Source: Oscillospiraceae bacterium (GTDB taxonomy: Bacteria > Bacillota > Clostridia > UBA1381). From it: 37,545 nt of DNA. Each line of letters begins with the position of its first letter. Within the stretch, counting starts at the first letter, position 1. This document shows positions 23,825 to 27,881 of the stretch, one piece after another. The translations under genes and the position numbers were made by a program. The DNA lies in NCBI GenBank assembly GCA_015068545.1, contig SVKH01000003.1, positions 1 through 37,545 of the forward strand. The letters run 5' to 3'. The notes under the pieces are model-generated. The model was not told the origin of the DNA. It saw only the letters and a list, made by a program, of their open reading frames with translations, and did not search any database.

Positions 23825-25528
23825 CTACATTTTTACATCTTTCAAAACAAGCTGCAGATTTTCTGCACCGTTATACTCATTTATGCTGATATTGTAAGCT
23901 ATGCTCACGGTCTCACCGCACTTAAGCTCACCAACCATATTCCCCATATTAAACCCGATACCGTTAAAAGTATTCTTGCCATCGGACATATACAGCTTCA
24001 GGTGACGGTTATCTGCGCCTATGGTACGGACTGTTATCAGTCTCATACCCTTTGACGAAAACACCGGAGTTTCGTTACTCATCCCAAAAGGCTCTAATTT
24101 CGACAAAATCTTTGCCGCATTTAGTGTGATGTCCGAGGTTGCAAGAGGACAATCTATATATATTTTAGGAAGGAGTGTTTTTCCTTCAAAGCATTTTTTT
24201 GCATATTGATTTAATCTTACTCTAAATTCTTCAATATTGCTTTGATTTATGCCAAAGCCTGCTGCCTGAGAATGCCCGCCAAATTCCGAAAGGATGTCAT
24301 CACACTCCGAAAGGGCAGAAAATAAATTCATTTCCTCTATGGACCTTCCCGATGCCTTTCCCTTTCCGTTCTGACAGGAAATCAAAATACATGGACGGTA
24401 GAACTGTTCACAAAGTTTGGAGGCAACTATGCCTATTACTCCGCTGTGCCAGTTTTCTGACCATAAAACATATGCAGACTGCTGGGTATCAAAGCTTTCT
24501 ATCTGCTTTAGAGCTTCTTTATATATTTCCTGCTCTATCTCCTGACGTTTTTTATTAAGGTTGTCAAGATATGTGGCTATTTTTAGGGCTTCGTCATAGT
24601 CCTCCTCTATCAGAAGGCGTACAGCAGTCTCGGCACTTTCCATTCTGCCTGCCGCATTAAGCCTTGGTGATATGGCAAATGCCACACTTTGCGCATCCAA
24701 TGTTTTACCACCCAGACCGGAAATACTAAGCAGAGCTTTTATACCGCAGTTTTTTGTTTGGGATAGCTTGGCTATGCCCTTTTCCACTATAACGCGGTTT
24801 TCACCCAAAAGCGGTACTACATCGGCTATTGTGCCTATTGCGACTAAATCTGCATATTCCATAAATATATTCTTGGTGTCCAGCTCCATCTTTATGCTGA
24901 TACCAAGTACTAGCTTAAAAGCAACTCCAACCCCTGCCAAAAACTCAAAACCATAGGTCGTATCCGGCTTTTTGGGATTGATAACGGCAACCGCCCTTGG
25001 AATCTCTTCCTTGCAGGTGTGGTGGTCTGTTATGATGAAATCTGCGCCCATAGTCTTAGCAAATTCCACTTCGCCCACACTGGTTATACCGCAGTCTACG
25101 CTTATAATAAGCTTTGCTCCATTTTTTATCAGTCGGTTAATTGCAGGGATGTTTAGTCCGTAGCCCTCCTTGTGTCTGTCGGGTATGTAGAACTCTACAT
25201 CAGCACCAACGCTTTTTAAGAATTTATAAAGGACTGCTGTGGCTGTTATACCATCTACGTCATAGTCACCGTAGATTATGATTTTCTCATGGCTGTCCAC
25301 CGCCTTTTTTATCCTGGCGACAGCTACTTCCATATCTTCAAAATTAAATGGGCTGTTTATAGCGGCAAGACTTTTCCTAAAATAAGCCGAAACCTCCGCA
25401 TCCTCTGTTATGCCGCGGTTTAAAAGCAAACAGGCAACAACAGGCGGCAGCCCATGCTTGTTACCGAAAGCAGTGATGTCATCTTTATTTAAATGTCTGC
25501 TCTTGTATTCCCATATTTTACTCTGCAT
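23825..25528 (-). CDS. recJ: Single-stranded-DNA-specific exonuclease RecJ
   Basis: IIIYGDYDVDGITATAVLYKFLKSVGADVEFYIPDRHKEGYG, ISVDCGIT, ITDHHTC, GGHSQAAGF. Confidence 0.97.
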   Translation of the reverse strand: MQSKIWEYKSRHLNKDDITAFGNKHGLPPVVACLLLNRGITEDAEVSAYFRKSLAAINSPFNFEDMEVAVARIKKAVDSHEKIIIYGDYDVDGITATAVLYKFLKSVGADVEFYIPDRHKEGYGLNIPAINRLIKNGAKLIISVDCGITSVGEVEFAKTMGADFIITDHHTCKEEIPRAVAVINPKKPDTTYGFEFLAGVGVAFKLVLGISIKMELDTKNIFMEYADLVAIGTIADVVPLLGENRVIVEKGIAKLSQTKNCGIKALLSISGLGGKTLDAQSVAFAISPRLNAAGRMESAETAVRLLIEEDYDEALKIATYLDNLNKKRQEIEQEIYKEALKQIESFDTQQSAYVLWSENWHSGVIGIVASKLCEQFYRPCILISCQNGKGKASGRSIEEMNLFSALSECDDILSEFGGHSQAAGFGINQSNIEEFRVRLNQYAKKCFEGKTLLPKIYIDCPLATSDITLNAAKILSKLEPFGMSNETPVFSSKGMRLITVRTIGADNRHLKLYMSDGKNTFNGIGFNMGNMVGELKCGETVSIAYNISINEYNGAENLQLVLKDVKM

Positions 25529-25704
25529 TTTATAAGTCTCCGCAACACAATATTTTTTAGTCTTTTTCTTAAAAAAACACTACCCATTTTATATTATAAC
25601 TTATCTATCATATTATATCATTTTTATATTATTTTTTCAAGTAAATTTGCATAAAAAATATAGATTTACACAATATAAAATTACACAGAAAGGAAGTGAT
25701 ATTT

Positions 25705-25830
25705 GTGTCAAACAATAATCAAAATCAAAACAAGAATAACCAGAACAAAAACGACAATAAGAACCAGAATCAAAACAAGAATAACCAAAATAAGAACGAT
25801 AATAAGAACGATAATAAGAAGCAATACTAA
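25705..25830 (+). CDS. 41-aa Asn/Gln/Lys-rich small protein of unknown function
   Basis: GTG start with SD AGAAAGGAAG 8 nt upstream; MSNNNQNQNKNNQNKNDNKNQNQNKNNQNKNDNKNDNKKQY*; all six differences between its two 45-nt repeats are synonymous in this frame; followed by a strong terminator. Confidence 0.75.
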   Translation: MSNNNQNQNKNNQNKNDNKNQNQNKNNQNKNDNKNDNKKQY

Positions 25831-25836
25831 AATACG

Positions 25837-25880
25837 AAAAATGAGCTGTGACAACAAATCACAGCTCATTTTATTTCTTT
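25837..25880 (+). terminator. Terminator of the small Asn/Gln/Lys-rich gene
   Basis: Perfect 11-bp stem ATGAGCTGTGA-CAACAAA-TCACAGCTCAT with flanking A/T runs. Confidence 0.88.
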
Positions 25881-25983
25881 ATAGGAAACTGCGTTCCCGT
25901 AAAGAAAAAAATAATCATACTGCCGTGCAATTTTTTTTGAAAAGCTTTAGCTTTTCAAAAAATGCACATGGCATAAGAAAAGC
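25877..25983 (+). repeat. Composite hairpin element, left inverted copy
   Basis: CTTTATAGGAAACTGCGTT...TGCCGTGCAATTTTTTTT-GAAAAGC-TTTA-GCTTTTC-AAAAAATGCACATGGCATAAGAAAAGC; inverted homolog at 27774..27881. Confidence 0.85.
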
Positions 25984-26034
25984 AAAATTGCTTCGGCCTT
26001 CCGCCGTAGGCGGTGCAGCGAAGCTGCTTTTCTT
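25975..26034. repeat. GC-rich nested palindrome adjoining the left element
   Basis: AAGAAAAGCA ... TGCTTTTCTT outer 10-bp stem, GCTTCG/CGAAGC middle, CCGCC-GTA-GGCGG tip. Confidence 0.75.
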
Positions 26035-26042
26035 GTTACAAG

Positions 26043-27644
26043 TTATAAGCCCTTCACAAACCGAAAATCAGTATCACTTTCCTCTCTTGTTACTTCTGCA
26101 GTTACCGTGTCATTTATAAGGTTTTGGGTTACAACATTATCAACTATCATTATCTTTACTTTTTTTATTTCTCCGGGATCAGGGGCAACGAGGTAAGCTT
26201 CCTGCGCCTCAGATGTTACGCGGTAGGTTCCTACTCCTAAAACCTTATCATTTAAATTACGGAACAAGCCTATTATGGTAACATCGGAATTATCCTCACC
26301 AAGCTTTACATAAACTCCGATGCTGTCTCCAAACGCATCGCATTCAGCCTCAAGCACAGGTGCTGATGGCTTATACTCATAGTGTATTTTAGACTCATGC
26401 AACTCTTCATTTCCGACACCTATTTCAATATTTTTCCACTGCTCTTCTGTTCCCGTGTAATATACATCGTCAATCCCGAGAATTGAACTGAAAGCATAAT
26501 CGCCAATAAAGGAAATGCTCTTAGGTATAGTAATACTTGCAAGTCTTATACATTGCGAAAAGGTGTATGTTCCGATGGAGGTAATACCATCGCCAATGAT
26601 TACACTTTCAAGATATTCGCAACTAGAAAACGCAGAATCGCCAAGACTTGTAACACTATCAGGTATTGTTATGCTTTTAATGCTGCTGCAAAAGTCAAAC
26701 GCACCACTGCCTATAGATGCAACGCCATTACCCAAAATCACTCTTTTAAGGTAATGGCAGCTACGAAACGCATCCTCATCAATAACTGTGCCATTACCCC
26801 CTGCTATGCTTACAATTTTCAGACTATTGCAATCACAAAATGCTTTCTTCCCAATGTATTCAATGGTTTTCGGGAAGATTACGCCTTCAATATTTTCATT
26901 ACCCCAAAATGAATAGCTTCTGACAGAGGTAACTCCCTCAGGTATGATAAGTGTTTTATCCTCCTTTCCCAAGGCATACTGGATAAACTCGGTTTTGTCT
27001 TTGCTATAAAGATTTCCGTCAAGGGATGATAAGTGCATATTATCTTCATCTACCTCTATGCTTGTGAGTGCCTCACATCTATCAAAACACATCTCTCCCA
27101 CAGATGCACAGCTCTTGCCAAGGACTACTTTTTCAAGCCTATCGCAGCCATAAAACATCCTTTCACCAATAGACTGAACACTATCAGGAATGGTAATGGT
27201 CTTAATCATATCACAACCCGCAAACACACCTCCGCCCATAGAGATAACGCTGTTTGGTATGCTTATTTCTACAAGACTATCACATCCATTAAATGCCGCT
27301 TCCCCAATATCAGTAACACCTTCATGTATGGTAATACTTTCAATTTTCTTACAACCCGAAAAAGCACGCGAACCAATGCTGGTAATACTACCCGGTATTG
27401 TTAAGCTTTTAATCCTATCGCATTTAAAAAAAGCATCTGAGTCAATAGCGGTAACAGGGTATCCCTCAATGGTATCAGGAATAACCATCTCTCCGGGTGT
27501 AGAATCTATACAGTCGGTGATTGTAACCTCTCCATTATTTACCTTGTAGCTCCAGCATTCGTATTTTTCTACAGCCGCAAAGCTTGTTTCCACAGCAAAA
27601 ACACCTGTGATAATCGTAAGTATCACAAACAATATTTTTCTCAT
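26043..27644 (-). CDS. Secreted BspA-type LRR_5 protein
   Basis: Signal peptide MRKILFVILTIITGVFAVETSFAA; IPDSVTSLGDSAFSSCEYLESVIIG-type repeats. Confidence 0.9.
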   Translation of the reverse strand: MRKILFVILTIITGVFAVETSFAAVEKYECWSYKVNNGEVTITDCIDSTPGEMVIPDTIEGYPVTAIDSDAFFKCDRIKSLTIPGSITSIGSRAFSGCKKIESITIHEGVTDIGEAAFNGCDSLVEISIPNSVISMGGGVFAGCDMIKTITIPDSVQSIGERMFYGCDRLEKVVLGKSCASVGEMCFDRCEALTSIEVDEDNMHLSSLDGNLYSKDKTEFIQYALGKEDKTLIIPEGVTSVRSYSFWGNENIEGVIFPKTIEYIGKKAFCDCNSLKIVSIAGGNGTVIDEDAFRSCHYLKRVILGNGVASIGSGAFDFCSSIKSITIPDSVTSLGDSAFSSCEYLESVIIGDGITSIGTYTFSQCIRLASITIPKSISFIGDYAFSSILGIDDVYYTGTEEQWKNIEIGVGNEELHESKIHYEYKPSAPVLEAECDAFGDSIGVYVKLGEDNSDVTIIGLFRNLNDKVLGVGTYRVTSEAQEAYLVAPDPGEIKKVKIMIVDNVVTQNLINDTVTAEVTREESDTDFRFVKGL

Positions 27645-27704: not shown

Positions 27705-27773
27705 GGCTTATAAGCATCCCGCTTCATTTTAAAATCAAACCGTTCACATAAAGCAAGCAAAGCGGAGTAATTC

Positions 27774-27881
27774 GCTTTTCTTATGCCATGTGCATTTTTG
27801 AAAAAGCTAACGCTTTTTCCAAAAAAAATTGCACGGCAGTATAATTATTTCTGCTTTATCAAAACGCAGTTTCCTATAAAG
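27774..27881 (-). repeat. Composite hairpin element, right inverted copy
   Basis: Reverse complement matches 25877..25983, with identical blocks CTTTATAGGAAACTGCGTT, TGCCGTGCAATTTTTTTT and TGCACATGGCATAAGAAAAGC. Confidence 0.85.

Follow-up and report, generated by a model that had tools for sequence, protein, structure and literature searches.

A recJ-divergent gene for a short Asn/Gln/Lys-rich protein in Clostridia, and its possible role as a forespore protein that works like the gamma-type SASPs

The stretch of DNA that we analysed, 37,545 nucleotides from an Oscillospiraceae bacterium (hereafter the window), has next to recJ a short reading frame whose product would consist largely of Asn, Gln and Lys. 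This raises the question whether such a low-complexity frame is a gene at all and, if so, what its product does. The features on which the first part of the answer depends are the following.

25705..25830, plus strand: gene for a 41-aa Asn/Gln/Lys-rich protein, GTG start and TAA stop, with recJ-divergent counterparts in relatives
25717..25806, plus strand: two 45-nt units (25717-25761 and 25762-25806) that encode the same peptide with six synonymous differences
25689..25696, plus strand: Shine-Dalgarno sequence AAAGGAAG, kept as AAAGGAAGTGAT ahead of the start in genus relatives
25838..25872, plus strand: intrinsic terminator with a 14-bp stem, a 7-nt loop and a T-rich tail

The frame from the GTG at 25705 to the TAA ending at 25830 is open throughout its 41 codons, and the product is MSNN-(NQNQNKNNQNKNDNK)x2-NDNKKQY, with a net charge of +5, no internal Met and no Cys. 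The preliminary description, made from the window alone, had the two-unit layout right but dropped one Asn by beginning the formula with MSN. Its statement that the units differ by six synonymous third-position changes was exact, and these changes lie at 25719, 25722, 25743, 25746, 25749 and 25755. It had also reported the ribosome binding site and the stop, both of which we located, and a perfect 11-bp-stem terminator; the terminator stands but its stem has 14 bp, and the fold has an energy of -19.3 kcal/mol (z -7.8). Since an alternative GTG at 25696 falls within the Shine-Dalgarno sequence itself and the genus relatives keep AAAGGAAGTGAT followed by a start 3-9 nt downstream, the start was assigned to 25705. 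In a genome of the same size and composition as few as 25 consecutive A/C-A-N codons would arise by chance about 1e-15 times. The next gene on the 3' side is on the opposite strand, and the small gene is predicted to be monocistronic.

The same DNA can be read in a competing frame beginning at 25703, which across 43 relatives has 0-2 stops and no sign of selection. That this frame is open is a by-product, because codons with A or G at the second base cannot give a stop in it. Third-position changes of the Asn/Gln frame become second-position changes when read in the 25703 frame, and between six pairs of close relatives codon positions 1, 2 and 3 of the Asn/Gln frame differ 20, 20 and 75 times, so that 75 of the 115 differences are at the third position. 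Two outcomes had been named beforehand as refuting, disruption of the GTG frame by frameshifts or stops and conservation confined to the 25703 frame. Neither was seen, since the differences gather at third positions of the Asn/Gln frame; moreover, position and composition are kept in 29 recJ-linked relatives. The gene at 25705..25830 is real.

A protein search of the genus with the 41-aa peptide returned only the window itself, and searching the order with a profile gave three weak matches. These direct searches fail because the peptide is of low complexity and is filtered, and not because relatives are absent, as the 29 found by synteny make clear. For the synteny search the divergent neighbour was used as anchor across 70 genomes of the same family.

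23825..25528, minus strand: recJ (Pfam DHH, DHHA1 and RecJ_OB)

A small Asn/Gln-rich ORF divergent from recJ, at the same place and in the same orientation, was present in all nine genus genomes and in 29 of the 70 family genomes; these ORFs have their composition in common and a different sequence in each. Four further family genomes carry such an ORF away from recJ. In many genera of the family no copy was detectable, which may reflect a less extreme composition. A scan of 388 Clostridia genomes for the codon pattern, with inspection of the results, added about 17 such ORFs from five or six other families, beside varied genes; the 12 that were measured have 26-72 aa. One of these copies immediately precedes spoIVB in the same orientation and another, in a different genome, follows sigE. 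As a separate observation, one recJ-unlinked ORF (L126, G064:C29) lies about 1.6 kb from an alpha/beta-type SASP gene on the same contig.

The 43 proteins contain 49% Asn, 21.5% Gln and 11% Lys and almost no hydrophobic residues, with a median length of 42 aa and a median net charge of +3, a composition that predicts disorder and solubility. A single Cys, usually close to the C-terminus, is found in 16 of the 43 (L004, L006-L008, L010, L011, L013, L015, L016, L019, L022, L039, L049, L068, L132 and L159). Pfam and NCBIfam searches, including hmmscan, of 31 members gave no family match. The gamma-type SASP profile (SASP_gamma, PF04259) matched in none of the 70 family genomes and did match in the B. 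subtilis control, and a GPR-like cleavage motif, in a pattern written from general knowledge, was found in none of the 43 proteins; the earlier remark that the known gamma-type motifs are missing thus holds. The proteins likewise have no Pfam match to the alpha/beta-type SASPs (PF00269), a conserved group of DNA-binding proteins that carry a GPR site and have no sequence relation to them; the window genome has its alpha/beta-type SASP gene elsewhere, on contig C56.

What the small ORFs do have in common with the alpha/beta-type SASP genes of the same genomes is the promoter architecture. The SASP genes carry GNATA-N17-CAAAATA, and GNATA-N17/18-(C/N)ANNATA is found upstream of many of the small ORFs, between -53 and -63 in most of the family; GAATA-N17-CATAATA and GAATA-N17-CAAAATA are among the near-perfect sites. 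The window has such a site.

25649..25677, plus strand: predicted forespore (sigmaG-like) promoter, -35 GCATA (25649-25653), 17-nt spacer, -10 CAATATA (25671-25677) followed by A

A weight matrix trained only on alpha/beta-type SASP promoters of the same family scored this site at 13.1, a value reached in two of 422 ORF upstream regions. A comparison with dinucleotide shuffles gave p=0.02 for the site. Scores of at least 9 were obtained for 11 of 31 upstream regions in the family and 6 of 12 in other families as compared to 11 of 422 in the background (p 1e-8 and 1e-6, the relatives not being independent) and 7 of 149 in an AT-rich background (p 1e-5 and 6e-5, respectively). When each lineage was represented by a single sampled member, a mean of 6.4 among 14 lineages scored above the 95th percentile, a weaker result that is on average still significant. 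These p-values are somewhat optimistic because the motif was first seen by eye in these sequences, although the matrix was trained elsewhere, and the motifs are short and AT-rich. No convincing forespore promoter was found in genus g6, L006 or L060, and it is missing or weak in several members outside the family. In C. difficile a G before the -10 marks a sigmaF site and an A after it a sigmaG site (PMC3789822). By this rule the CAATATA of the window, followed by A, fits a sigmaG-type site, and GGGCAAAATA of genus g7 fits a sigmaF-type or dual site.

An alpha/beta-type SASP is present in the window genome and in 60 of the 70 family genomes. Outside the family, where the presence of sigmaG is a better test than that of alpha/beta-type SASP, all 18 carriers have a sigmaG-family match; it is clearly sigmaG in 17, and the weaker match in the remaining one (G369) could belong to a different sporulation sigma factor. 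Among the putative non-sporing controls, three of four have no sigmaG match and the fourth has one weak match; two small-genome controls (G099 and G137) have a sigmaG match and no detected Asn/Gln ORF. Alpha/beta-type SASP is no more frequent among the outside carriers (11 of 18) than in the Clostridia genomes as a whole (262 of 388), which counts against the forespore assignment. The sigG of the window genome itself was not clearly found in its incomplete (75%) metagenome assembly; genus members have sigG.

Based on these findings, we propose that the gene probably codes for a forespore protein, disordered and located in the spore core, whose function resembles that of a gamma-type SASP although it is not one. 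RNA polymerase with sigmaG (or sigmaF) would transcribe it from GCATA-N17-CAATATA during sporulation, and the product, a small, basic and intrinsically disordered protein, would be kept in the forespore; therefore, we infer, it would end in the spore core. There it could fill the core and serve as a soluble store of amino acids, rich in nitrogen and quickly digested, that is consumed in outgrowth. Selection would then maintain composition, size and expression and not sequence, which would be why homologues are not detectable. The forespore timing is well supported by inference from the promoter resemblance, the sigmaG of the carriers and the neighbouring genes, whereas storage of amino acids and nitrogen is suggested by analogy only, and the lack of a GPR cleavage site counts against it. 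The preliminary description had considered a spore, coat or phase-separating role. Of these, the spore is retained, now as forespore and core, and the coat is disfavoured because of the promoter, the sigmaG of the carriers and the spoIVB and sigE neighbours, coat proteins being made in the mother cell.

The likeness to the gamma-type SASPs (SspE, PF04259, Bacillales) lies in small size, richness in Asn and Gln, repeated units, a very variable sequence, a forespore-type promoter and expected disorder and solubility. Unlike them, the proteins described here are about half as long, far more extreme in composition and have neither a PF04259 match nor the GPR motif, and since membership fails on profile and cleavage site we say only that they work alike. 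The minor Bacillus SASPs (SspK to SspP and Tlp) are likewise short, made in the forespore and frequently overlooked by annotation, but the 31 members searched match no Pfam or NCBIfam family.

The main alternative, which we regard as unlikely, is that the Asn/Gln-rich chains self-assemble in the forespore into gels or condensates that give order to the core or adjust germination, as GerG of Clostridioides difficile might suggest. GerG is also Asn-rich, repetitive, spore-associated and without homologues, and its Asn-rich repeats gel in vitro (PMC5241399); Asn and Gln make up 71%, and the single Cys of 16 of the 43 proteins could cross-link. However, the chains are short (26-72 aa), carry Lys at regular intervals and are almost devoid of aromatic residues, and Cys is absent from the window protein. 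GerG, moreover, is much longer, Met-rich, found in C. difficile only and expressed from sigmaE in the mother cell, and can fulfil its germination function without the repeats (PMC5241399), whereas the window protein has 41 aa and a forespore-type promoter.

Less probable still is that the protein is made from an ordinary vegetative promoter and has nothing to do with spores. Chance matches do arise in AT-rich upstream regions, and the genus g6 copies have no forespore motif, but the scan placed its only plus-strand sigma-70-like matches farther upstream, at 25569-25616, and the forespore-type site is found repeatedly, in different lineages, at a single distance. An attenuator leader peptide sensing the supply of Asn and Gln, in which the AAY/CAR codon run and the hairpin control a downstream gene, agrees with the strong terminator after the codon run but is rejected as very improbable because most genes downstream are convergent with it, the next one lying on the other strand in the window as in most relatives; the neighbours also vary by family (prfB-like, phosphoglycerate mutase-like, murD-like and glyS-like, recognised by eye) and no alternative antiterminator was seen. 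Equally remote is neutral, microsatellite-like DNA that is open by chance: slippage expands such repeats and the family is patchy, but the fixed site beside recJ across many genera, the conserved Shine-Dalgarno sequence and promoter position, the terminators of several relatives and the mixed synonymous codons in place of pure repeats all speak against it.

The gamma-type SASP of B. subtilis has been hypothesised to be an amino-acid reservoir and is described as not found in Clostridia (PMC8452069), an absence also reported elsewhere (PMC3533761). This raises the question of what, if anything, is the protein reserve of their spores. Our literature search found no Asn-rich proteins under sigmaG control. 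A more tentative proposal, which we put at slightly less than an even chance, is that a widespread class of Clostridia forespore proteins, convergent or diverged beyond recognition, functionally replaces the gamma-type SASPs; as it is set by composition and promoter and not by sequence, such a class is invisible to homology databases. A family that searches do not see, together with a predicted promoter and a recipe of composition, synteny and promoter, makes the question of the reserve testable in cultured gut Clostridia, and it is a warning that low-complexity genes are overlooked by ORF tracks and profile libraries.

Two further elements were noted on the 3' side of the gene. The convergent gene at 26043-27644 (minus strand) codes for a 533-aa BspA-type leucine-rich repeat protein (Pfam LRR_5). 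Between it and the small gene, at 25905-26045, lies a dispersed repeat of about 130 bp with two hairpins (single-stranded DNA fold z -6.9), which is REP/MITE-like. A partial copy is at 27771-27850 on the minus strand of the window, and the 1.45-Mb draft genome has about 30 copies of the repeat; a core 20-mer of the repeat occurs in no locus fetched from other genomes.
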